From the NCBI RefSeq assembly GCF_030063445.1, contig NZ_JASITD010000008.1, forward strand, positions 124,001 to 188,000: a stretch of 64,000 nt of DNA, given 5' to 3'. Shown here in pieces: positions 4,338 through 26,819 of this stretch (its first letter is position 1; each line of letters begins with the position of its first letter). The DNA comes from Hymenobacter sp. H14-R3 (GTDB taxonomy: Bacteria; Bacteroidota; Bacteroidia; Cytophagales; Hymenobacteraceae). Position numbers and translations under genes: made by a program. The notes under the pieces were generated by a model. That model made no database searches and had not been told where the DNA came from. It saw nothing but the letters and a program-made list of their open reading frames with translations.

Positions 4338-7300
4338 ATGATTGCAGAAACCTTTATTCGCCGGCCCGTCACTGCCATTGTTGCCTCGCTGGTAATCGTG
4401 CTGGTGGGCGTGCTGGCCATGCTGAACCTGCCCATCGGGCAGTACCCCGAAATCACGCCGCCCACGGTGTCGGTAACGGGTAGCTACATCGGGGCCGACG
4501 CCCAAACCGTGGAGCAAACCGTGGCCACGCCCGTGGAAGTGCAGGTGAACGGTACCCCCGGCATGACCTATCTGCAAAGCAACAGCACCAGCAACGGGCA
4601 GATGAGCATGACGGTGAACTTTGAGGTGGGCACCGACATCAACATTGCCGCCCTCGACGTGCAGAACCGGGTGGGCATTGCCACCCCTACCCTTCCGCAA
4701 GAAGTTCAGCGCCTGGGCCTTACGGTGCGCAAGCGAAACCCCAGCATCTTGATGCTCGTGGCCATGTACGCGCCCAAGGGCAGCCACAGCACCACCTTTC
4801 TCGACAACTACGCCAACGTGTTTATCAAGGACGCGCTGCTGCGGACCAAGGGCGTGGGCGACATTGTGAGCCGGGCCGATGACTTCTCGATGCGCATCTG
4901 GCTCAAGCCCGATAAGCTGGCCCAGCTGGGCGTGACGGCGGCCGACATTTCGGCCGCCCTGGCCGAGCAGAATGCCCAGATTGCGGCCGGCTCCATTGGT
5001 GCGCCGCCCGCCCAAAAAGGGCAGTCGTTCGAGTACATCGTCACGGTGCAGGGCCGCCTGGCCACCATTGAGCAGTTTGGCAACGTCATCGTGAAAACCC
5101 GGCCCACCGACGGCTCGCTGGTGTATCTCAAGGACGTGTCGCGCATTGAGTTGGGCAAGTTCAACTACGCCAACAACTCGTTTGTGGATGGCAAGCGCGC
5201 CTCCTACCTACTTGTGTACCAGGCACCTGGCGCCAATGCCCTGGCTACCTACGACAACGTGCTGGCCACCATGAACCAGCTGAAGAAGCAGTTCCCGGCC
5301 GACCTCGACTACATCGTGCCCTTTGAGGCGGCGAGCGTGGTGAAGGTGTCCATTAAGGAGGTGGTCGAAACGCTGGGCGAGGCCCTGCTGCTGGTTATCA
5401 TCGTGGTGTTCGTGTTTCTGCAAAGCTGGCGCTCCACGCTCATCCCGGTACTCGCCATTCCGGTGTCCATTATCGGCACATTTATCTTCTTTATTCCGCT
5501 GGGCTTTACCATTAACACGCTGACGCTCTTTGGTTTCGTGCTCGCCATTGGTATTGTGGTCGATGACGCCATTGTGGTGGTGGAGGCCGTGGAAGTGAAC
5601 ATGAACGAGCGCAAGATGAGCCCCCTGGATGCCACCCTGGAGGCCATGCGCGAGATATCGGCCCCGGTTATTGCCATTGCCCTCATTTTGGCGGCGGTGT
5701 TTGTGCCGGTGGGCTTCATTCCGGGCATCACGGGGCGGCTGTATCAGCAGTTTGCCATCACCATCGCCATCTCGGTGCTGATTTCGGCCTTCGTGGCTTT
5801 GTCACTCACGCCGGCCCTGTGCGTGCTGCTCCTCAAGCCGCACGAGGAAGGCGAGCATGGCGAGCCTAAAGGCCTGCTAAACAAAGGTTTCAAGAAATTC
5901 AACGACTGGTTTGGCCGCGTTACCGAGAAGTATGGCAACGGGGTGCAGCGCGGCATCAAGCACTCGCGCTTCGTGGTGATTATCCTGCTTTGCATTTTGG
6001 TGGGGGCCGGGTTGCTGTTCCGCAGCAAGCCCAGCGGCTTCCTGCCCACCGAGGATGAAGGCCGCATTATCATCACCTTCAACCTGCCCGAAGGTGCCTC
6101 CACGGGCCGCACCGTGGCCACGCTGCAAGAGATGATGAAGGAACTGAGCAAGACCAAAGGCATCGCGCACTACGCGGCGCTGGGCGGCCTCAACGCCGTT
6201 AACTTCTCCTCCAAATCGAACTCCGGCACCATTTTCTGCCAGCTCCAGCCCTGGGAGGACCGCAAGGCCAAAGAACTGCAGCTAACTGGCCTCATGGCCA
6301 GCGTGCAGCAGCGCATGGCGCGCTTTAAGGAGGCTACGACGGTGGTTATTTCGCCGCCGGCCATTCCAGGCCTGGGTAACACGGGCGGCTTCTCGTTCAT
6401 TTTTCAGGAACGCGAAGCCGGGGGCGATATTCAGGCATTTGATGCCAACCTGCAAAAATTTCTGGGGGCCATTCGCAAGCGGCCCGAAATCGCGTCGGGT
6501 TTCTCGTTTTTCACCGCCAACACGCCGGGCTATAAGCTCGAAATCGACCGCCTGAAGGCCAAGAAGCTGGGCGTATCCATCACGGAAATTGGCAACGCGC
6601 TGCGCACCTACCTGGGCAGCGCCTACGTCAACGACTTCACGCTCTATGGCCGCACGTTCCGCGTAGTGGCGCAGGCCGACTCGTCGTACCGCGGCGATAT
6701 CTCCGACCTGGGCCAGTACTACGTGCGCAACGCCGCTGGCGGCATGGTGCCGCTGAGCACGCTCACCACGTACAAGCGCACCGAAACGGCCCCGCTCATC
6801 TCGCACTACAACCTGTTTCGGGCGGCCGAAATCAACGGCAACCCGGCCCCCGGCTACAGCTCGGGCGACGCCATTAAGGCCCTCCAGGAAACCGCCGCGC
6901 AGATTCTGCCCCAGGGCTATGGCTTCGAGTTTTCGGGTTTGAGCCGCGAAGAATTGCTGGCCGGCGGCCAAACGATTTACATCTTCGCGCTGTCCATCAT
7001 CTTCGTGTTCCTCTTTCTGGCCGCGCTGTATGAAAGTTGGTCGGTGCCGTTCTCGGTGCTGCTGGCCGTGCCGGTGGGTATTTTTGGGGCCATCCTGGCG
7101 CTCATTTTCCTACCCAAGCTCACCAACAACGTGTACGCCCAAATCGGGATGATTACGCTCATCGGCCTCTCGGCCAAGAACGCCATTCTGATTGTCGAGT
7201 TTGCCAAGGAGCGCGTAGATAAGGGCATGCCGCTGGTCGATGCCACGCTCGAAGCCGTGCGCCAGCGCCTGCGCCCCATTATCATGACCTCGCTGGCGTT

Positions 7301-7577
7301 TATCCTGGGTATTCTGCCGCTGGTGTTCGCTTCCGGCGCGGGGGCCCAAAGCCGCCAGACGCTGGGCTGGACGGTGCTCGGCGGCATGCTGTCGGCTACG
7401 GGCATGGGCATTTTCATCGTGCCGGTGCTCTACGTCATCATCACGCGCTTCGCCTACGGCAAAGAAAAGCTGGCTGAGCTGGAGAAAAACTACAAGCCCG
7501 ACGAGGAGCACGGCGGTCCTAAACCCGACGAGCCGCAGCCCCAAGGCGACGCCCCGGGCGCGCCCGTACCGGCCTAG
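4338..7577 (+). CDS. RND efflux pump inner membrane subunit (AcrB/HAE1 family)
   Basis: Proton-driven multidrug-type exporter of 1079 residues, normal for the family. It begins MIAETFIRRPVTAIV, the typical TM1 entry. Twelve membrane segments are expected in two halves: TM1 at about 10-30, TM2-TM6 at about 345-500, TM7 at about 550 and TM8-TM12 at about 880-1045. Large periplasmic porter domains fill the gaps. The TM4 proton-relay pair is visible in GIVVDDAIVVVE (Asp near 407-408), and the partner Lys of TM10 in GLSAKNAILIVEFAKE (near 945). The C-terminal 45 residues form a Pro/Glu-rich cytoplasmic tail. It completes the tripartite operon with the channel and adaptor. Confidence 0.95.
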   Translation: MIAETFIRRPVTAIVASLVIVLVGVLAMLNLPIGQYPEITPPTVSVTGSYIGADAQTVEQTVATPVEVQVNGTPGMTYLQSNSTSNGQMSMTVNFEVGTDINIAALDVQNRVGIATPTLPQEVQRLGLTVRKRNPSILMLVAMYAPKGSHSTTFLDNYANVFIKDALLRTKGVGDIVSRADDFSMRIWLKPDKLAQLGVTAADISAALAEQNAQIAAGSIGAPPAQKGQSFEYIVTVQGRLATIEQFGNVIVKTRPTDGSLVYLKDVSRIELGKFNYANNSFVDGKRASYLLVYQAPGANALATYDNVLATMNQLKKQFPADLDYIVPFEAASVVKVSIKEVVETLGEALLLVIIVVFVFLQSWRSTLIPVLAIPVSIIGTFIFFIPLGFTINTLTLFGFVLAIGIVVDDAIVVVEAVEVNMNERKMSPLDATLEAMREISAPVIAIALILAAVFVPVGFIPGITGRLYQQFAITIAISVLISAFVALSLTPALCVLLLKPHEEGEHGEPKGLLNKGFKKFNDWFGRVTEKYGNGVQRGIKHSRFVVIILLCILVGAGLLFRSKPSGFLPTEDEGRIIITFNLPEGASTGRTVATLQEMMKELSKTKGIAHYAALGGLNAVNFSSKSNSGTIFCQLQPWEDRKAKELQLTGLMASVQQRMARFKEATTVVISPPAIPGLGNTGGFSFIFQEREAGGDIQAFDANLQKFLGAIRKRPEIASGFSFFTANTPGYKLEIDRLKAKKLGVSITEIGNALRTYLGSAYVNDFTLYGRTFRVVAQADSSYRGDISDLGQYYVRNAAGGMVPLSTLTTYKRTETAPLISHYNLFRAAEINGNPAPGYSSGDAIKALQETAAQILPQGYGFEFSGLSREELLAGGQTIYIFALSIIFVFLFLAALYESWSVPFSVLLAVPVGIFGAILALIFLPKLTNNVYAQIGMITLIGLSAKNAILIVEFAKERVDKGMPLVDATLEAVRQRLRPIIMTSLAFILGILPLVFASGAGAQSRQTLGWTVLGGMLSATGMGIFIVPVLYVIITRFAYGKEKLAELEKNYKPDEEHGGPKPDEPQPQGDAPGAPVPA

Positions 7578-7586
7578 TACCTTTGA

Positions 7587-7638
7587 GTTGAAAACGAAGA
7601 AAGCCAGGTCGCAGGACCTGGCTTTCTTCGTTTTCAAC
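7587..7638 (+). terminator. Hairpin terminator after efflux operon
   Basis: Perfect 24-bp stem (7587-7610 with 7615-7638) and a 4-base loop, 9 bases after the pump stop codon. The arms contain AAAACGAAGAAAG and CTTTCTTCGTTTT, giving a U-rich 3' side. A TACCTTTG promoter-like octamer lies immediately before it at 7578-7585. Confidence 0.85.
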
Positions 7639-7655
7639 CCGTTCAGGAAGTTGCC

Positions 7656-7755
7656 AGAATGTCATGCCGACCGCGGGGAAGCACCTCACGTGTGGTACTA
7701 ACTCAATCGCTCAACGATGCGAGCGAGATGCTTCCCTGCGGTCGGCACGACGTTC
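7656..7755. repeat. Imperfect long palindrome upstream of GH43 gene
   Basis: The 31-base arms (about 7656-7685 and 7726-7755) match as reverse complements at about 27 positions. The arms centre on GCCGACCGCGGGGAAGCA and its counterpart TGCTTCCCTGCGGTCGGC. It occupies most of the gap between the efflux terminator and the GH43 gene. It looks like a dispersed intergenic element, though only this copy is in the window. Confidence 0.65.
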
Positions 7756-7795
7756 TGATAGACCTTATATTACCCCCTGAATCATCCTCCCCCTG

Positions 7796-8836
7796 ATGCG
7801 CTTTTTACGCTTACTGCTCCTGCTGCTCCTAGCCAGCGGCCCCGCCTGCGGCCAGCCCACGTTCACCAACCCGCTGCTGCCCGCCGGGGCCGACCCATGG
7901 GCCATCTACCACGCGGGCAGCTACTACTACATGCATACCACGGGCCGCGACCTCAGCATCTGGAAAACGGCGAGCCTCGCGCAGCTTGGGCAGGCCACCA
8001 AAACCGTTATCTGGACGCCGCCCGCCACGGGCCCCTACTCCAAGGAAATCTGGGCCCCCGAGCTGCATTTTCTGGCCGGTAAGTGGTACGTGTACTTCGC
8101 CGCCGACGGGGGCAGCAACAACGACCACCGCCTCTACGTGCTCGAAAACCCCGCCCCCGACCCTACTACGGGCAAGTGGACGCTAAAAGGCGAACTCAAA
8201 ACGCCCGGCAACAAGTGGGCCATCGACGGCTCGGTCTTCGAAAGCCAGGGCCGGCTCTACGCCCTGTGGTCGGGCTGGGAGGGTGATGAGAACGGCCGCC
8301 AGGACATTTACCTGGCTCGCCTCAGCAACCCCTGGACCATCAGCGGCCCGCGCGTGCGCATCTCCGACCCGCGCTTTGGCTGGGAGCAGCATGGCCTGCT
8401 GCCTCGCTTCGCGCCCGGCGAGCCAGCGATGGTGCTCGTCAACGAAGGCCCGCAGTTCTTGGCCAGCCCCAACGGCCGGGTCAACGTAGTGTATTCGGCC
8501 AGCGGCTGCTGGACCGATTTTTACGCCCTGGGCCTGGTCTGGGCCGAGCCGGGGGCCGACCTGCTCAACCCCGCTTCCTGGCATAAGGAGCCGCAGCCCG
8601 TGTTCCGCGCCCAAAACGTGCAGGGCACCTACGCGGCGGGCCACAACAGCTTCTTCGACTCGCCCAACGGCAAGCAGCACTGGATTCTCTACCACGCCAA
8701 CGCCGAGCCGGGCCAGGGTTGCGGCCGCGCCCGTACCCCGCGCATGCAGCCCTTCACCTTCGCCGCTGACGGCGCGCCCGTTTTTGGCGACCCGCTCCCG
8801 CTGGGTGAGTTGCTGTCAGTGCCCGATGCTAAGTAG
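7796..8836 (+). CDS. Secreted glycoside hydrolase family 43-like protein
   Basis: Five-bladed beta-propeller glycosidase, probably acting on arabinose- or xylose-containing plant polysaccharides. 346 residues with a signal peptide of about 19 residues (MRFLRLLLLLLLASGPACG). The three GH43 catalytic positions are visible: Asp33 in GADPW (general base), Asp144 in AIDGS (pKa modulator) and Glu217 in NEGP (general acid). Also typical are the blade motifs IWAPELHFLAGKWYVYFAA and the closing WILYHAN. There is no carbohydrate-binding or type IX sorting domain, so it is probably periplasmic. It stands alone, with no sus-type genes next to it. Family call is firm; substrate is inference. Confidence 0.88.
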   Translation: MRFLRLLLLLLLASGPACGQPTFTNPLLPAGADPWAIYHAGSYYYMHTTGRDLSIWKTASLAQLGQATKTVIWTPPATGPYSKEIWAPELHFLAGKWYVYFAADGGSNNDHRLYVLENPAPDPTTGKWTLKGELKTPGNKWAIDGSVFESQGRLYALWSGWEGDENGRQDIYLARLSNPWTISGPRVRISDPRFGWEQHGLLPRFAPGEPAMVLVNEGPQFLASPNGRVNVVYSASGCWTDFYALGLVWAEPGADLLNPASWHKEPQPVFRAQNVQGTYAAGHNSFFDSPNGKQHWILYHANAEPGQGCGRARTPRMQPFTFAADGAPVFGDPLPLGELLSVPDAK

Positions 8837-10885: not shown

Positions 10886-11653
10886 TTACAGGCCAGCACA
10901 TCCAGTAGCGTAAATACCCCCCACGCCACCGCCAATTACCGGAGCAAAAGGTCCGGTTTCGATGGCTATTCCAGTAGTATATGTAGCTACTTCACCAGCC
11001 GACCAGCCGCAACCAAGTAGACCTGCTATCATTTCTGACGTAGCTACATTTTTATCGCTCTGCCTCTTAACTTCGGCATTTTGCCTACAAGAGTACCAAG
11101 GACCATTAGTACCATCATTATAAGCCTCTTCATTATTCATGCTAGGGCCACATTCATCACAGTTGTTGTAGTGGCAATCAGAGCATATATCACCATTGCG
11201 AAGTGTTTTGGCCGTTTGCTTTGCCGCTAGCGGTTGATGAGCAAAAATTACCGGGTATTTGCGTCCCAGTTTATTAGAAGCTAACTGCGGCGCTTCGGTC
11301 AAAACAGATAAGGGAAGCCTCTCTAAAAATATCCCTGACTTGGCCAGTTTTCCTTTTGCACTCGTAAACTGGCTCAGGTGAACAAGGTACTGATTCACGT
11401 CCTTAAAGCTTAGAAGCTTGATAGCCAGTACCAGGCTATCCTTATCATTACGGCTCAGCAGCAGGCTAACCCGTTTGCTCATTGCTATCCGCTTTGGTTC
11501 GCTATGGGCATCGCGCAGGTTATTATAGAGCACGTCTCGCATGTCGGAGGTCAGCGTAACGATACGTAGGAAGGAGGTATCAGCGACTATCGCCTGAGCG
11601 GATAGCTGCACCGGAACAACTCCCTTACTTTGGTCGGATGAGCATTGCAGCAA
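10886..11653 (-). CDS. Hypothetical secreted protein, 5' end probably frameshifted
   Basis: Family not recognised. The open frame of 255 codons can only begin at a TTG (11653). Its first residues (LLQCSSDQSKGVV) do not look like a start. One frame away, an ATG at 11705 encodes a good signal peptide, MKLLLIRAFLFSCLLSNLAA, that stops shortly after running past 11653. A single-base shift near 11640-11653 would join the two into a secreted protein of about 272 residues. The mature part has a cysteine cluster (CSDCHYNNCDEC) and ends in a Gly-rich tail (GGGVGGIYATGCAGL) resembling tails of bacteriocin-like peptides. Either a recent pseudogene, a sequencing error, or an unusual start. Confidence 0.5.
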   Translation of the reverse strand: MLQCSSDQSKGVVPVQLSAQAIVADTSFLRIVTLTSDMRDVLYNNLRDAHSEPKRIAMSKRVSLLLSRNDKDSLVLAIKLLSFKDVNQYLVHLSQFTSAKGKLAKSGIFLERLPLSVLTEAPQLASNKLGRKYPVIFAHQPLAAKQTAKTLRNGDICSDCHYNNCDECGPSMNNEEAYNDGTNGPWYSCRQNAEVKRQSDKNVATSEMIAGLLGCGWSAGEVATYTTGIAIETGPFAPVIGGGVGGIYATGCAGL

Positions 11654-19412: not shown

Positions 19413-20741
19413 ATGCTCGACCAGATTCGCCAATTCATTACTGATAATACCCTTTTTAACCTCGAAACCGATACCGTGCTGGTGGCCGTGAGCGGCGGCC
19501 TCGACTCGGTGGTGCTGCTCGACGTGCTGCACCGGCTGGGCGTGTCGCTGGCCGTGGCGCACGGCCATTTCGGCCTACGCGGCGAAGAGGCCGACGCCGA
19601 CGAGCAGTTCGTGCGCAAGCTGGCCAAACAGTACGAGGTACCCTATTTCGCCGAGTATTTCCAGACCAAGGCCTTTGCCGAGCGCGAGGGCATTTCCACC
19701 CAAATGGCGGCCCGGCTGCTGCGCTACCGCTGGTTTGAGCAGGTGCGGGCCACCAATGAGTACGCCGCCGTGGCCACCGCCCACCACCGCCGCGACGCCG
19801 CCGAAACCATGCTGCTCAACCTCACCCACGGCACCGGCCTGGCGGGGCTGCACGGCATTCGGGCCAAAAATGACTTTGTGGTGCGCCCCATGCTGGCCTG
19901 CGAGAAGGACGATATCTACGACTACATCGCCACCAACCGCCTCATCTGGCGCGAAGATGCCAGCAACGACAGCCCCGTGTACCAGCGCAACCGCCTGCGC
20001 CTGGAGGTGCTGCCCGTGCTGCGCGACATCAACCCCAACCTGGATAACACCCTGGCCGCCAGTGCCGAGCGCGTAGGCGGGGCCGAAGAAATAGTGCGCC
20101 GCTACGTGGCCGACACCGCCGCCCAGGCCCGCCGCGACGCACCCGAGGCCGTGTATTTCAGCATTGCGCTGCTCCAAAACACGGCCGCTACCACGCTGGT
20201 GCTGCACGAGATGCTGCGGCCCTTCGGCTTTTCGTGGGTGGTGAGCAAGGAAATCGCGGCCAGCTTCACGGGCTTGTCGGGCAAGCAGTTTGACTCGCCC
20301 ACCCACCGGCTGGTGAAGGACCGAGACCAACTCGTGATTACCCCGCGCCGCCTGGCGCAGTACGGCACCTTCCAACTAGCTGAAAACCAAGAAGATTTAC
20401 TGGCCGATGGCCTGCGCCTACGCGCTACCTACCACGAGGGGGCTGGCTACGAAATTCCGCGCTCGCGCAGCACCGCCGCCCTGGATGTGGACAAGTTGAG
20501 CTTCCCGCTCACGCTGCGCCGCTGGCGCGAGGGCGACTGGTTTATGCCCCTGGGCATGAAGGGCAAGAAGCACCTCAGCGACTTTCTCATCGACCAAAAA
20601 GTACCTCTCAACCTAAAGGACGAGGTGCGCGTGCTGACCGCCGCCGACGGCAAAATCTGCTGGGTGGTGGGCTTCCGCGTCGATGACCGCTTTAAGGTGG
20701 AAGAAACTACGGCGCGGGTGGTGGCCGTGCAGCGCCTGTAA
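19413..20741 (+). CDS. tilS: tRNA(Ile)-lysidine synthetase
   Basis: Modifies cytidine 34 of tRNA-Ile(CAU) to lysidine using ATP, so the anticodon reads AUA. 442 residues. The PP-loop motif is SGGLDS at 27-32. Further family motifs are AHGHFGLRGEEADADEQFV, VATAHHRRDAAETMLLNL, GLAGLHGI and EDASNDSPVYQRNRLR. The C-terminal domain includes LRRWREGDWFMPLGMKGKKHLSDFLID, the tRNA-acceptor binding part. Divergent from the OstA-like gene. A GAACTTTG stretch about 40 bases before the ATG may be part of its promoter. Confidence 0.96.
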   Translation: MLDQIRQFITDNTLFNLETDTVLVAVSGGLDSVVLLDVLHRLGVSLAVAHGHFGLRGEEADADEQFVRKLAKQYEVPYFAEYFQTKAFAEREGISTQMAARLLRYRWFEQVRATNEYAAVATAHHRRDAAETMLLNLTHGTGLAGLHGIRAKNDFVVRPMLACEKDDIYDYIATNRLIWREDASNDSPVYQRNRLRLEVLPVLRDINPNLDNTLAASAERVGGAEEIVRRYVADTAAQARRDAPEAVYFSIALLQNTAATTLVLHEMLRPFGFSWVVSKEIAASFTGLSGKQFDSPTHRLVKDRDQLVITPRRLAQYGTFQLAENQEDLLADGLRLRATYHEGAGYEIPRSRSTAALDVDKLSFPLTLRRWREGDWFMPLGMKGKKHLSDFLIDQKVPLNLKDEVRVLTAADGKICWVVGFRVDDRFKVEETTARVVAVQRL

Positions 20742-20815: not shown

Positions 20816-21361
20816 ATGCGCGGCTCTTTTTTATCCCTGATTCTGGTGGGCTTAGCTGGCTACCAGGCCGCCGCCCAAACCCCGACGCTGGCCCCCGAGC
20901 CGGCCGCGTTGGTCGGCACCTATCGCCTCACCTACCAGCCCGACTCGACCAACCCAGCCAGGCGCTCGGATATTTTCTATCTGCTGCTGGGCAAAACGCT
21001 GTCAAAATTCCAGAGCCGGGGCGAGCAGGCAGCCGATTCGCTGCTGGCAGTGGCCAACGCAACGCCCTTCACCCACGAAAACGCCCAGTAAGTGACCGAC
21101 ACGCGCGGCCAGCTCACCTTCGGGCTCACCCGGCTGCGCCAGCTGGGTGCCCCGGTAGCCATTGCCCCACCCGAAGCCGACGCCAAGCTCATCACCAAGG
21201 CCGACTTCGTGCGCGGCAAGGCCGACTACGAGCGCACGGCCTTCGAGCAAATACTGGCCAACGGCAACATTCGCTTCGGCACCCCCGAGCAAACCGAAAC
21301 CGCCAAGGTCAAGGCCCGCAACCGCGCCAAGCGCAAGACTAACCCCCTGGAATTAAAGTAG
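20816..21361 (+). pseudogene. Decayed GLPGLI-family gene lacking its centre
   Basis: One reading frame from ATG 20816 to the stop ending at 21361, interrupted by an in-frame TAA at 21089-21091. The N-terminal part has a signal peptide (MRGSFLSLILVGLAGYQAAAQ) and TYRLTYQPDSTNP, aligning to TYRLIFRPDSTSP in the intact gene at 22106. The part after the stop (TDTRGQLTFGLTRL to KTNPLELK) aligns with the C-terminal third of that gene (SDVTNSYTFELIGL to RSNNPIELK). About 100 residues between them, including the defining GLPGLI motif, are missing. GC content is that of the surrounding genome, so this appears to be the resident copy, now broken by an internal deletion and a nonsense codon. Confidence 0.85.
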
Positions 21362-21716
21362 TTTTACCGTTCTTAGCATTCAAGTATTTTGGTAATTTTT
21401 CAATCAAGCAATTGCACATGAGTGAAAATAATTTCATTGTTTATCAGCCTCTTATCAACAGTGGCACTATATTTTAACACTAGAAATTAGGAAGTCTATT
21501 TTTTTTTTCCGAAGTTTTACAGCCGTCATCGGTCGCCACGCAGTCTCTTGCTCAATGCATTAGCTGACGTGGCCCGGTGCCGGCAAGCCACTACCGGGTT
21601 GGCTCCCCATTTCGTATGCGATGGCCCAACAAGGTTCTGCACCTGGGCTTTATCGGGAGGGCAGCCTCACATGGTTCCGGGGGTCAGCGGAGCCGGGAAT
21701 TTTTCTCTGTTTTTTT
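21362..21716. other. AT-rich intergenic stretch, start of foreign-looking segment
   Basis: 355 bases without a recognisable gene. The first 180 bases are strongly AT-rich with a run of ten T (about 21499-21508). The following part is GC-richer and holds a small hairpin (CCCGGT at 21573-21578 with ACCGGG at 21593-21598), which could be a leader structure for the small secreted protein at 21717. I see no match to a riboswitch class I know. Confidence 0.5.
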
Positions 21717-21998
21717 ATGAAAAAGCTTTTTTTAATGGCTGCCTTATTGGGCAGTACTTCGCTCGTTAGCATGGCAGCTGGTACGCCTGCTAATAGAAAT
21801 GCAGCTTCTAGTTCCACCACTGTTCAGCTTGGTCGGCAAAATATCAAATCCATAACCCAGTTGTTGTATAAGCGCTCAGGTTATGGTTGTGTCGGTGTTT
21901 GCCTTTCGTGTGATATAGAAATGACTTGCTGCGGTAACTCAATACAAGATATTCTTGCTATTGCTGATGGCTGGGACAATCTTATTTGCATAGGGTAA
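21717..21998 (+). CDS. Small cysteine-rich secreted protein, 93 aa
   Basis: Unrecognised family. From the ATG at 21717 the product has a clean signal peptide (MKKLFLMAALLGSTSLVSMAA) and a mature part of about 72 residues. The first half is Ser/Thr/Asn-rich; the second half holds six cysteines in GYGCVGVCLSCDIEMTCC and DNLICIG. It may fold by disulfides in the periplasm or outside. AT-rich like the GLPGLI gene 107 bases downstream and probably arrived with it. A peptide substrate of, or companion to, the GLPGLI/receptor-like pair is a reasonable guess but unproven. Confidence 0.6.
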   Translation: MKKLFLMAALLGSTSLVSMAAGTPANRNAASSSTTVQLGRQNIKSITQLLYKRSGYGCVGVCLSCDIEMTCCGNSIQDILAIADGWDNLICIG

Positions 21999-22105
21999 TC
22001 AATAACAAACCAGAAGAATAGGGAATGTAAACATTTTTTGTTTATTATCTTTATTCTTCTGGTTTTGAGTTATAATTAACCTCGTTAATAATCAATTAGG
22101 AAATC

Positions 22106-22951
22106 ATGACTAAGTTGCTTATATTTTTTGCTTGGGTATGTGTAATTAGAAACGGCGTTGGGCAACCCATGCAAAGTGCTACTGGTGCGAATGTCAAACT
22201 GGCATGTACTTACCGCCTCATATTCAGACCGGATTCTACTAGCCCCAATACCTTAACAGAAAAAATGCAACTACTTGTTGCAGGTGAATTTTCTGAATTT
22301 AAGAGTGTACCTCAAGCTAGAGATTCAATCAAAGCTGCCATCTTGGCTAAGGGTGACGCAAATGGGATAAATAATGAAGATATCGGACGCTCTATAAGCG
22401 CAATGCTTAGAGCCCCTAGCCGTAAGTTCAACTATTCGGTGTACAAATTTTTTAGTAATAAGCAGTGCGTTGTCTATGACGACATTATGCGGGAGCACTA
22501 TAAGTATGAAGAGGTCAAATACCCCTTGACTTGGCAACTGTTTGCAACTACTGCGAAAGTAGGCGACTATAAATGCCAAAAAGCTACTACTTATTTTGCA
22601 GGTCGGCAGTATGAGGCATGGTTTACAAGAGAAATTCCGGTCAGCGAAGGTCCATATAAATTCAGTGGTCTGCCAGGACTTATTATTAAAATAAGCGATG
22701 TGACTAATAGTTACACGTTTGAATTAATTGGCTTAGAAAAGCCGACAAGGCTTTATTCCATTGGCTTGCCTACGCAGTTGACTATGAGTACTACTAAGCG
22801 CCTATTTTTTGAGGCTGTGAAATCAACTCGTGAAAACGCTGTTAATCTAGCATCTCAATCTGGTGTTACATTTAAGAACCCGGATTTAGTTAGAGCCCAT
22901 CTAACAGAAAAGATAAAACGTTCAAATAATCCAATCGAGTTGAAGTATTAA
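22106..22951 (+). CDS. GLPGLI family secreted protein
   Basis: 281 residues with a signal peptide (MTKLLIFFAWVCVIRNGVGQ). The hallmark is YEAWFTREIPVSEGPYKFSGLPGLI with the conserved GLPGLI at about 195-200, and the preceding GDYKCQKATTYFAGR strand. The C-terminus ends RSNNPIELKY, a typical family ending. Function of the family is unknown; members are extracytoplasmic and often lie beside TonB-receptor-like proteins, as here (next gene starts 11 bases after the stop). Strongly AT-rich compared with the genome. It is a full-length paralog of the decayed gene at 20816. Confidence 0.9.
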   Translation: MTKLLIFFAWVCVIRNGVGQPMQSATGANVKLACTYRLIFRPDSTSPNTLTEKMQLLVAGEFSEFKSVPQARDSIKAAILAKGDANGINNEDIGRSISAMLRAPSRKFNYSVYKFFSNKQCVVYDDIMREHYKYEEVKYPLTWQLFATTAKVGDYKCQKATTYFAGRQYEAWFTREIPVSEGPYKFSGLPGLIIKISDVTNSYTFELIGLEKPTRLYSIGLPTQLTMSTTKRLFFEAVKSTRENAVNLASQSGVTFKNPDLVRAHLTEKIKRSNNPIELKY

Positions 22952-22961
22952 ATACCGCATT

Positions 22962-25673
22962 GTGCCGCGATTAACTTGGTTGAATTGTAAGCTTATTCAA
23001 CGTTCGGTCACCTATGCTATTTTTTTGCTGAGTATATCAATACCAGCTCATGCCCAAACTATCCTCACTGGCACCGCCCGCAACGCCGCCGGCCAGCCGC
23101 TGGAAGGCATCTTGCTAGAAGCCGAAACCAAGACCCAGCCGCCCGCCTCGGCCTTCGTCATCTCGGGGGCCGATGGCGGGTTTCAGCTGACCTTACCCCC
23201 CACGCCGGCCAGCGACTCGCTGCGCCTCTCGGCCCGCGCCCTGGGCTACGCCGAGCAGCTTATCCGGCTGGTGAACCGCAGCCAGCCGGTGGCCATCAAA
23301 ATGGCGGAGAGCACCACCGCGCTCAAGGAGGTGGTGGTGCAGGGTGCGCCCATCACGCGGCAGGGCGACACGCTCAGCTACAAAGTCGATGCCTTTGCCA
23401 GCAAGCAGGACCGCGTGATTTCGGACGTGCTCAAGAAGATGCCGGGCATTGAGGTGGCCAGCGACGGGCAGATTTCCTACGAGGGGCGGCCCATCAGCAA
23501 GTTTTACATCAACGGGCAGGATTTGCTGGAGAGCCGCTACAACCTGGCCAGCGACAACCTGCCCAGCGGGGCCGTGCAGAGCGTGCAGGTGCTCGAAAAC
23601 CACCAGCCCATCCGTGCGCTCGACAAGCTGGTACACCCCGACAATGCGGCGCTCAACATCAAGCTAAAGAGTAAGATAACCGCCACCGGGCAGGCGCGGC
23701 TGGGCGCGGGGCTGGTGCCGTCGCCCACTTCGGCGCTGTGGAGCGCCAACGTGTCGCCGATGCTGTTTACCAAAAAGCAGCAGCTCATCGATACCTACCA
23801 GGGCAACAACACCGGCCAGGACGTGGCCGCCGAGCTCAAGCCCCTGACAATGGCCGACTTGCAGCAGCAAAGCGAGAGCAGCAACCAGAAGCCCGACCTC
23901 ACCCACATCCAGGGCCTGGGCCAGCCGCCGGTGGCCGCCAGCCGCTACCTCTTCAACCGGGTGCACCTGCTGAGCGCCAACCACCTGGTCACCATTAGCA
24001 AGGAAAACCAGCTGCGGGTGAATGCCTCGTACCTGCACGATGTGCAAACGCAGCGCGGCAGCTCGCAGACGTTCAATTATTTACCTGATAATCAAACGGT
24101 TAAAATTACGGAAGATAAATATAACAGGTTGTATTTCAATACGTTGCAAACGGACCTGGCGTTCATCAAAAATATCAAGGACTACTACCTCAAAAATACC
24201 TTGAATCTGCAGGGCAGTTGGGATTCGCAGACCAGCGACATTTACCGGGCCGAGAGCGGGGCGCGCATTACGCAGGCGGCGCGCAACCCGTTTTTGGCGG
24301 CTACCAACCGGCTGGGGCTGGTGCGGCCGCTGGGCACGGGCAAGATTTTGCAGGCGTCGTCGCTGGTATTTTACACCAACTCGCCGCAGCGGCTGGCGGT
24401 GAGCCCCAGCGTGTTTGCCCAGGCCCTCACGGGCGGCGCGGCCACCGATACCACCCGGCAGCAGGTGCGGCTGGGGTCGTTTTTTACAAGTAACTCGCTG
24501 GGGCTCACCGCCAGCCGCGGGCACTGGGCCTACTCGGGCACGGCCGGCTTCTCAACCGAGATTCAGCGCCTGACTTCGGCCCTGGAAACCGCGCCCGAGC
24601 CCGCCACGGCGGGCCTGCCCCTGCGCAACGACCTGGCCTGGGCCCGCACCCGCGCCTACCTGCAGCCCGGCCTAGGCTACAAAAGCGACCTGTGGAACGC
24701 CACCCTCGACCTGCCGGTGAGCTACTACGACTTCCAGGCTCACGACGACGCGCTGGCCGCCGGGCAGCGCCTGCGCGTGCTGGTGGCCGAGCCCCGCCTC
24801 AGCGCCCGCCGCGACCTGGGGGCGCTGTGGTACGCCTCGGCGGGCGCGGGCCTGCGCAATGGCTTTGGCGATATTTCGCAGCTCAACTACGCCTACATTC
24901 TGCGCGATTACCGCACCTTGCAGCGCAACGACGCGCCGCTGCCGCGCAGCATCGGACAGAGCTACAACGCGGGGCTGTATTTCAAGAATCCGCTCAAGTC
25001 GCTGTTTTTCAGCACCAATTATTCGTTTTCCACTACGCTTAGCAACCGCCTGTACAGCAGCCGGGTAGATGCCAGCGGGGCCCTCACCACGGTGGCGCTC
25101 GACCAGGACAGCCGCCGCGTGAGCCACGCGGTGTTTGGCAACGTCAGCAAGTTTGTGAGCCCCTGGAAAACCAATTTCAGTCTTAACCTGTCGGCCAGCC
25201 GCAGCCGCCAGCCGCAGGTGCTCAATGGCACGCTGGCCCAAACCACCAGCCGCTCGGCCACGGCCACCTTCAAAACCAGCGTATCGGCCTTCGACTGGGG
25301 CAGCCTCGATTACAGCGCCACGCTCACCGCCCTGCGCAGCACCGTGGAAGGCGCACCCGCCCAACCGCTGGCCCTGCTGCAAGCCCACCACGCCAGCGCC
25401 AGCATCTTTCCGGTGGGCCGCCACGCCCTCACGGCCGCCGCCGACTACTACGCCAGCCGGGGGCCGGCCGACCCGGTACGCGCCGTATTTGCCGACCTCA
25501 CCTACCGCTACACGCTGCCCACGGCCCGCAAAATTGATTTAGAGCTGCGCTGGAACAATATTTTCGACACCCGGCAGTACCAGTACAGCTACGTGAGCCA
25601 GTTTGTGCTGGCTCAAAGCACCTACCAGCTGCGGCCGGCCCAGGTGCTAGCCTTGGTGCGGCTGTCGCTGTAG
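22962..25673 (+). CDS. TonB-receptor-like outer membrane protein with carboxypeptidase-like domain
   Basis: About 903 residues from a GTG at 22962 (no better start; signal peptide ends PAHAQ). Residues about 33-115 form a carboxypeptidase-regulatory-like beta domain (TGTARNAAGQPLEGILLEAETK). Then a plug-like region (VVVQGAPITRQGDTLSYKVDAF, VISDVLKKMPGIEV, FYINGQDLLESRYNL) and a C-terminal beta-barrel of about 600 residues. It would reside in the outer membrane with the upstream GLPGLI protein as partner. The first 90 bases are AT-rich like the upstream genes, then composition jumps to GC-rich, so the gene is chimeric. A second AT-rich patch lies at 24070-24200. The stop codon lies in a palindrome. 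Confidence 0.85.
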   Translation: MPRLTWLNCKLIQRSVTYAIFLLSISIPAHAQTILTGTARNAAGQPLEGILLEAETKTQPPASAFVISGADGGFQLTLPPTPASDSLRLSARALGYAEQLIRLVNRSQPVAIKMAESTTALKEVVVQGAPITRQGDTLSYKVDAFASKQDRVISDVLKKMPGIEVASDGQISYEGRPISKFYINGQDLLESRYNLASDNLPSGAVQSVQVLENHQPIRALDKLVHPDNAALNIKLKSKITATGQARLGAGLVPSPTSALWSANVSPMLFTKKQQLIDTYQGNNTGQDVAAELKPLTMADLQQQSESSNQKPDLTHIQGLGQPPVAASRYLFNRVHLLSANHLVTISKENQLRVNASYLHDVQTQRGSSQTFNYLPDNQTVKITEDKYNRLYFNTLQTDLAFIKNIKDYYLKNTLNLQGSWDSQTSDIYRAESGARITQAARNPFLAATNRLGLVRPLGTGKILQASSLVFYTNSPQRLAVSPSVFAQALTGGAATDTTRQQVRLGSFFTSNSLGLTASRGHWAYSGTAGFSTEIQRLTSALETAPEPATAGLPLRNDLAWARTRAYLQPGLGYKSDLWNATLDLPVSYYDFQAHDDALAAGQRLRVLVAEPRLSARRDLGALWYASAGAGLRNGFGDISQLNYAYILRDYRTLQRNDAPLPRSIGQSYNAGLYFKNPLKSLFFSTNYSFSTTLSNRLYSSRVDASGALTTVALDQDSRRVSHAVFGNVSKFVSPWKTNFSLNLSASRSRQPQVLNGTLAQTTSRSATATFKTSVSAFDWGSLDYSATLTALRSTVEGAPAQPLALLQAHHASASIFPVGRHALTAAADYYASRGPADPVRAVFADLTYRYTLPTARKIDLELRWNNIFDTRQYQYSYVSQFVLAQSTYQLRPAQVLALVRLSL

Positions 25674-25770: not shown

Positions 25771-25874
25771 CGGCCCCCGTACAACGCAAAGGCGCATTGC
25801 CACGCAGCTTTCGGGCGTACTTTTACCAAGCCAGACTTGCTGGCTTTGTTCCCCCCTACCATTCATTAATTCCC

Positions 25875-26819
25875 ATGAAAGTCACCGTAGTTGGAGCTGG
25901 CAACGTGGGCGCTACCTGCGCCGATGTGCTCGCCACCCGTGAAATTGCCAATGAAGTTGTTTTAGTTGACATTAAGGAAGGCTTCGCCGAAGGTAAGGCG
26001 CTCGATATCTGGCAGAAATCGCCGATTATTGGCTACGACACCCGCACGGTGGGCGTTACCAACGACTACGCCCGCACTGCGGGCTCGGAGGTAGTGGTTA
26101 TCACCTCGGGCCTGCCCCGTAAGCCCGGCATGAGCCGCGACGACCTGATTGCCACCAACGCCGGCATCGTGAAGTCAGTGACTGAGCAGGTGGTAAAGCA
26201 CTCGCCGAACGCCATTATCATCATCGTGAGCAACCCGCTCGACGTGATGACCTACCAGGCGCACCTCACCGCCAAGCTGCCCCGCGAAAAGGTGTTCGGC
26301 ATGGCCGGCATCCTCGACACGGCCCGCTACCGCGCCTTTTTGGCCGAGGCCCTCAACGTGAGCCCCAAAGACATTCAGGCGGTGCTCATGGGTGGCCACG
26401 GCGACACCATGGTGCCCCTGCCCCGCTACACCACCGTGGGCGGCATCCCGGTGACCGAACTCATTGACAAAGCGAAGCTTGACGCTATCATCGAGCGCAC
26501 TAAGTCGGGTGGCGGCGAGCTGGTGAAGCTCATGGGCACCTCAGCCTGGTACGCGCCCGGCGCGGCCGCGGCCCAAATGGTGGAAGCCATCGTGCGCGAC
26601 CAGCGCCGCGTGTTTCCGGTGTGCCTGGAGCTGCAAGGCGAGTACGGCATCAACGGCGTGTACCTTGGTGCCCCGGTTATCCTGGGCAAAAACGGCGTGG
26701 AGCGCGTGATTGAATTGCAGCTCAACGACGAAGAAAAGGCGATGCTCGAAACCTCGCGCGGCCACGTGAAAGAGGTAATGGATGCCTTGGATAAGATGAG
26801 CGCCGCCCCGGCCGCGTAG
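25875..26819 (+). CDS. mdh: Malate dehydrogenase
   Basis: Oxidises malate to oxaloacetate with NAD in the citric acid cycle. 314 residues from the ATG at 25875, belonging to the lactate-dehydrogenase-like group. Motifs: GAGNVG at 7-12 for NAD, the acidic residue ending VVLVDIKEG, and the mobile loop with GLPRKPGMSRDDL. The Arg pair in that loop gives malate specificity. Also VSNPLDVMTY and the catalytic His in GGHGDTMVPL. A longer in-frame start at 25713 would overlap a palindrome and add an unlikely leader. Followed by a perfect terminator. Confidence 0.96.
   Translation: MKVTVVGAGNVGATCADVLATREIANEVVLVDIKEGFAEGKALDIWQKSPIIGYDTRTVGVTNDYARTAGSEVVVITSGLPRKPGMSRDDLIATNAGIVKSVTEQVVKHSPNAIIIIVSNPLDVMTYQAHLTAKLPREKVFGMAGILDTARYRAFLAEALNVSPKDIQAVLMGGHGDTMVPLPRYTTVGGIPVTELIDKAKLDAIIERTKSGGGELVKLMGTSAWYAPGAAAAQMVEAIVRDQRRVFPVCLELQGEYGINGVYLGAPVILGKNGVERVIELQLNDEEKAMLETSRGHVKEVMDALDKMSAAPAA

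Follow-up and report, generated by a model that had tools for sequence, protein, structure and literature searches.

What accounts for a block of AT-rich (adenine- and thymine-rich) DNA that ends inside a receptor gene, in a GC-rich (guanine- and cytosine-rich) stretch of the genome of Hymenobacter sp. H14-R3? The stretch, hereafter the window, comprises 64,000 nucleotides (assembly GCF_030063445.1, contig NZ_JASITD010000008.1, positions 124,001 to 188,000), and the block lies between tilS and mdh, where it contains a gene for a small cysteine-rich secreted protein, a gene of the GLPGLI family and the first codons of a gene for a TonB-type receptor. With a probability of about 0.78, we read it as the allele now present at a fixed chromosomal site that carries a hypervariable cassette, which homologous recombination replaces between species. 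The observations behind this reading are synteny, composition, hypervariability, conflicting trees, the position of breakpoints, a chimeric receptor in a relative and the co-variation of the small protein with the GLPGLI protein. An earlier note on this DNA had proposed a single event, in which an AT-rich relative donated the block, the crossover fell in the receptor gene and the native GLPGLI gene was left to decay.

The block (21362–23055) has a GC content of 40.7% versus 61.1% for the whole window and is the lowest 1,694-nucleotide (nt) stretch in the 64 kb (z = −4.6). GC at third codon positions (GC3) is 83% in tilS, 82% in a GLPGLI relic next to it, 38% in the small protein gene, 36% in the intact GLPGLI gene, 33% in the receptor signal peptide, 85% in the mature receptor and 80% in mdh. 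The upper edge lies directly past the stop of the relic (21361), and the lower edge falls at 23060, the codon after the receptor signal peptide (...AHAQT), at the signal-peptide cleavage site. The fall and rise in composition reported by the earlier note were therefore borne out (GC3 ~83 to 36 to 85), as were the contents of the block, including the first ~30 receptor codons (~27–33 found). The receptor gene (22962–25673) starts at a non-ATG codon, either GTG at 22962 or a TTG further downstream. The block is uneven, with 31% GC in 21362–21530 and 59% GC in a conserved non-coding leader (21531–21716). From left to right, the locus consists of tilS, the relic, an AT-rich intergenic stretch, the leader, the small gene, GLPGLI, the receptor and mdh:

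19413–20741, plus strand: tilS, a housekeeping gene and the conserved left flank (tblastn synteny in 14 genomes including the window)
20816–21361, plus strand: relic GLPGLI pseudogene (blastp of its halves; GC3 82)
21531–21716, plus strand: non-coding leader, GC-richer, inside the AT-rich block (DNA identity in relatives)
21717–21998, plus strand: small secreted Cys-rich protein of 93 residues (profile matches in the genus and in other families)
22106–22951, plus strand: intact AT-rich GLPGLI family gene, 281 residues (TIGR01200, E = 9.5e-44; tree; structure model)
22962–23060, plus strand: receptor signal peptide, AT-rich, the likely 3′ end of the exchanged unit (DNA identity to orthologues)
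23061–25673, plus strand: mature receptor with a CarboxypepD_reg domain, a weak plug and a predicted TonB-type beta barrel, the conserved part of the locus (orthologues and fold matches)
25872–26819, plus strand: mdh, a housekeeping gene and the conserved right flank (tblastn synteny)

A search for the receptor covered 120 Hymenobacter genomes, sampled at one genome per species. A full-length orthologue was found in 18 and a remnant in one (G034, Hymenobacter sp. UV11), and the relatives with an orthologue or remnant include H. cyanobacteriorum and H. actinosclerus. In 14 genomes, the window included, the receptor sits between tilS and mdh, and these tilS-linked orthologues are 51–86% identical. 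The receptor-proximal GLPGLI gene is AT-rich (29–40% GC) in 13 of the 14, the exception being G073 (54%), while the receptors (62–69% GC) and tilS (62–68% GC) of the same genomes are GC-rich. Because the AT-rich cassette is also carried by deep lineages whose receptor is only 51–55% identical to that of the window, it is what the locus commonly carries and not a one-off import.

Replacement at this locus is NEVERTHELESS real and recurrent between species. G117 and G121 share 97% protein identity in TilS and 90% in the mature receptor, but 29% in GLPGLI; for G081 and G117, the values are 95%, 94% (receptor) and 34%. These contrasts might also arise without any exchange, if the cassette diverged in place very fast under relaxed or positive selection and its AT-richness came from mutation bias or weak selection. 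Broken small genes occur in several genomes, as do some broken GLPGLI genes, and constraint on part of the cassette is thus often weak, as divergence in place would have it. However, the GLPGLI protein of G121 is 58% identical to that of G099 and 62% to that of G104, whose receptors are only 52% and 66% identical to its own, against 29–34% between sisters with receptors at 90–94%. The nearest kin of such mismatched GLPGLI proteins occupy this locus in Hymenobacter species that are only distantly related.

The trees conflict accordingly in the approximately unbiased (AU) test. With the receptor data, the GLPGLI clade of G036, G121, G099 and G104 was rejected (p = 9e-7), and with the tilS data, G121, G099 and G104 (p = 1e-35). 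Conversely, the GLPGLI data rejected G081, G117 and G121 (p = 8.5e-5), the receptor clade of the window (p = 1.4e-7) and G104 with G095 (p = 1.5e-4). The groups were chosen after seeing the data, which makes these p values optimistic, but the likelihood gaps are large. The similarity of the small proteins tracks that of the GLPGLI proteins even after receptor distance is allowed for (partial Mantel r = 0.43, p = 1e-4).

Divergence in place is also difficult to reconcile with the sharpness of the boundaries. In pairs of close relatives, a DNA identity of 86–91% extends from tilS to a point ~40–65 nt into the small gene, within its signal peptide, where homology vanishes, leaving unalignable DNA between conserved flanks; it is regained 3–18 nt before the first mature codon of the receptor in most pairs. 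In G104/G095 and G016/G027, it is regained ~150–170 nt into the mature receptor. Residues 1–57 of the G104 receptor are 84–89% identical in DNA to G099, a member of the other clade, and 42–54% to its sister G095, while from residue 78 onward the identity is 82–96% to G095 and 58–80% to G099. The G104 receptor gene is chimeric, its first ~60 mature residues coming from another clade. Nor is AT bias general to the family: a GLPGLI gene at another Hymenobacter locus has 61% GC in flanks of 62% (G010). Given the conflicting trees, the boundaries and the chimeric receptor, we disfavour divergence in place and leave it only a slight chance.

The 5′ end of the receptor gene is where the breakpoints concentrate. 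In the window, the DNA of the receptor signal peptide is 30–50% identical to every relative compared, and that of the next 19 codons 79–89%. Because of this sharp change in identity, and because, in the same genome pairs, the ostA and bamD signal peptides (where present) can still be aligned, a crossover at the end of the signal peptide is likely, if short of proven, for the window itself. The chimeric receptor of the earlier note can thus be seen in a relative, G104, and is probable for the window.

Under recurrent cassette replacement, the exchanged unit would pair the mature part of the small Cys-rich protein with its GLPGLI partner; to a varying extent, it would also reach into the receptor gene, taking the signal peptide or a longer piece of the 5′ end. 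Species would swap such units through ordinary homologous recombination, acting in the conserved flanks, namely the end of tilS, the leader and the small-protein signal peptide upstream and the conserved receptor downstream. The AT-rich state would then be a standing property of the cassette pool, and the allele of the window would have arrived by the same route, probably with its crossover at the signal-peptide end.

Several points weigh against this reading. In G117/G081, homology is regained earlier and the receptor signal peptide is shared and native, so that it is not always part of the exchanged unit; over the whole set of genomes, signal-peptide similarity is not associated with GLPGLI similarity (partial Mantel r = 0.10, p = 0.14). 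The crossover proposed for the window is deduced from a loss of alignability. With one genome sampled per species, no recent within-species swap of alleles was seen, and the persistent low GC of the cassettes is not accounted for. In G099, G104, G117 and G121, an intact receptor stands next to a small gene that looks broken. We also considered that the receptor signal peptide generally travels with GLPGLI; as the partial Mantel test was not significant, this is claimed for individual cases only.

The single import of the earlier note draws some support from the sharp GC edges of the block and from the decayed GC-rich GLPGLI gene adjoining it. That gene, however, appears to be of composite origin. 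Its N half (20816–21091), of the x1/x2 type and closing with a TAA, is joined in frame to a C half (21092–21361) of the x3 type; by blastp of the halves, the former is nearest to the x1/x2 group (61% to G115x2) and the latter to the x3 group (58% to G115x3, 55% to G073x). About 100 residues are missing, including the whole GLPGLI core, and the TAA stop stands at the junction. The relic most plausibly arose when at least two GC-rich tandem paralogues collapsed into one. Such paralogues are intact in G115 (L052), where tilS is followed by three GC-rich GLPGLI genes, two AT-rich cassettes of small gene plus GLPGLI, and the receptor, and three GC-rich copies are also present in G036, whose contig begins within tilS. 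Considered as displaced old partners, these GC-rich arrays fall into orthologous groups of their own. They form a separate tandem array that coexists with the cassette and was not replaced by it. Since the relic fuses two paralogues that stand intact beside AT-rich cassettes in G115, it is not the displaced native partner that the earlier note took it for. In G073, an x3-type GC-rich GLPGLI gene directly precedes a truncated receptor copy; this arrangement favours the single import to some extent, as the GC-rich type may once have been the partner of a receptor.

The origin of the window's cassette tells further against that scenario. Its GLPGLI protein is sister to that of the inner cassette of G115 (G115b; 55% identity, support 100/98) and lies in an all-Hymenobacter clade (100/98) that excludes outside homologues. 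No closer relative was found outside Hymenobacter among the sampled genomes of the order (292) and the class (395), where the best outside matches had 40% identity and 41% over part of the length, respectively. No low-GC donor is indicated among these genomes, although unsampled donors are possible. The comparison of GLPGLI and receptor trees that the earlier note had suggested thus revealed a strong conflict, with GLPGLI grouping with Hymenobacter and not with low-GC Bacteroidota. That note had also held that the same block in all Hymenobacter genomes, with congruent trees, would speak against replacement; we found the block in 13 of the 14 genomes, yet with incongruent trees. Replacement by homologous recombination therefore stands as recurrent exchange, while the one-off import from a low-GC relative is largely refuted and has little probability left.

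In the genome of the window, there is no second GLPGLI cassette and no second small gene of the same family, and acquisition of the allele by conversion from a silent copy is therefore unlikely. The two different tandem cassettes of G115, which have a GC-rich GLPGLI fragment between them, might represent an intermediate of swapping by gain and then loss.

Mobilisation by a site-specific recombinase or mobile element recognising the leader, which precedes each cassette in one clade (twice in G115), is the least probable explanation, as 3′ breakpoints range from before the signal peptide to ~60–75 codons into the mature receptor, exchange is also seen in the second clade, where the leader is absent, and the ORFs (open reading frames) listed between tilS and mdh include no integrase gene, the only transposase-like ones noted being those that disrupt the G099 GLPGLI gene.

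The leader (21531–21716) shows 72–87% DNA identity in G115 (two copies), G036, G099 and G114. The AT-rich block, leader included, had no Rfam match, and the leader may be a promoter or a 5′ regulatory RNA.

The small proteins have a conserved signal peptide (MKKLxLLAALxxGxSF), a hypervariable mature part and a C-x(n)-SC-x(n)-CG-x(n)-C pattern near the C terminus. They match no Pfam or NCBIfam family above cut-off. PADLOC gave no match either, and these searches hit no known toxin or defence family; we found no literature on a small Cys-rich protein together with TonB in Bacteroidota. Genus-wide, strong profile matches occurred only at receptor loci of the same kind. A profile of the mature part showed that members also lie upstream of GLPGLI elsewhere among the Cytophagales families (E ~1e-6 among 110 ORFs), and a search of the 292 order genomes yielded further small proteins, several of them adjoining known GLPGLI matches. 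Receptor homologues at the order level also adjoin GLPGLI matches, GLPGLI being upstream of the receptor in other families too, with small proteins upstream in several. The trio of small Cys-rich secreted protein, GLPGLI and Oar-like TonB-type receptor is thus met again in Cytophagales outside this family.

The window's GLPGLI protein is a clear member of its family (TIGR01200 / PF09697 Porph_ging), scoring 149.9 bits against TIGR01200 (cut-off 50) and carrying the KFSGLPGLI motif; the cassette member differs in being variable among closely related species and in its exchange together with the upstream small gene. Its model (predicted local distance difference test score, pLDDT, 85) is a half barrel whose closest match is the PNGF-II N-terminal domain, followed by LolA-type lipoprotein carriers and VioE, although identity is low (~13%) and the catalytic glycanase domain is lacking. 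GLPGLI is widespread in Bacteroidota, and the literature found gives no function for it.

CarboxypepD_reg was detected in 18 of 18 receptor orthologues at E ≤ 1e-3 (best 1.3e-9), the window's own score of 26.5 bits being below the Pfam cut-off of 32.3. The plug match is weak (PF07715, E = 0.035, below cut-off), with a pLDDT <50 in that region, and the N-terminal part of the model is of low confidence. A sequence search in the PDB gave no match. Foldseek matched the model to FecA, FhuA and FpvA (E = 1e-9 to 1e-7) with template modelling (TM) scores of only 0.3–0.4, and these fold matches support a TonB-type barrel. Oar of Myxococcus xanthus, a CarboxypepD_reg TonB-dependent transporter required for PopC secretion (PMC6434023), has the same N-terminal domain and, as predicted for Hymenobacter, a TonB-type barrel; the Hymenobacter receptor, a putative transporter, differs in its weak plug match and its genetic tie to GLPGLI and a small Cys-rich protein. 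Receptor loops were considered as the site of specificity, but showed modest peaks only (near residues 514–574 and 769–798), nothing like the cassette replacement.

The evolutionary pattern appears closest to the exchange of effector-immunity modules in the type VI clusters of Vibrio cholerae (PMC5361080). In each, homologous recombination between conserved flanking regions exchanges a variable pair of genes, with no integration site involved. Mosaic trees are also common to both, as are delivery machinery that stays constant and arrays of paralogues, although in Hymenobacter the delivery role is putative and the paralogues are only possibly left over from exchange. The Hymenobacter locus differs in lacking type VI machinery and in its pair, a Sec-type secreted Cys-rich protein and GLPGLI upstream of a TonB-type barrel; we do not claim membership, and any toxin or immunity role is putative.

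Beyond the pairing and exchange of small protein and GLPGLI, a function can be suggested only tentatively. The small protein might be a variable secreted cargo, GLPGLI its matched periplasmic LolA-like half-barrel partner and the Oar-like barrel a generic transporter, with antagonism, phage pressure or self/non-self recognition as the force behind the variation. It is more doubtful still whether the three components make up a Cytophagales system not described before. In such a system, the conserved TonB-type barrel would export (or recapture) a variable small protein alongside a matched GLPGLI half barrel that serves as carrier or as immunity protein, and species would change specificity through cassette swaps. 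If true, this would give a role to the widespread orphan GLPGLI family. That the pair is hypervariable and traded while the barrel is constant suggests where specificity lies, and function is open to swap, deletion and competition tests. At the least, recombination is seen here shaping the 5′ end of a receptor gene.

The locus has decayed to various extents in the relatives. In G034 (Hymenobacter sp. UV11; L068, 9414–10208), only a tilS fragment, the N half of a relic GLPGLI and the C-terminal end of the receptor precede mdh, and the module is therefore dispensable. In G099 (L053, 7218–9049), GLPGLI is split by transposase-like ORFs and an ACG stands in place of the small gene's ATG, although the receptor is intact. 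The small genes of G104, G117 and G121 (L060, L066 and L067) are seemingly frameshifted near the 5′ end or in the middle, again beside intact receptors, which could be real decay or homopolymer sequencing errors. In G073 (L057, minus strand, ~6900–7940), the truncated receptor copy continues in frame into a small Cys-rich ORF, a 345-residue fusion that suggests duplication and collapse of the module.

Elsewhere in the window, a second AT-rich patch (10886–11653, minus strand, ~45% GC) holds a Cys-rich ORF of 255 residues that has no Pfam match and ends in a Gly-rich, bacteriocin-like C terminus.

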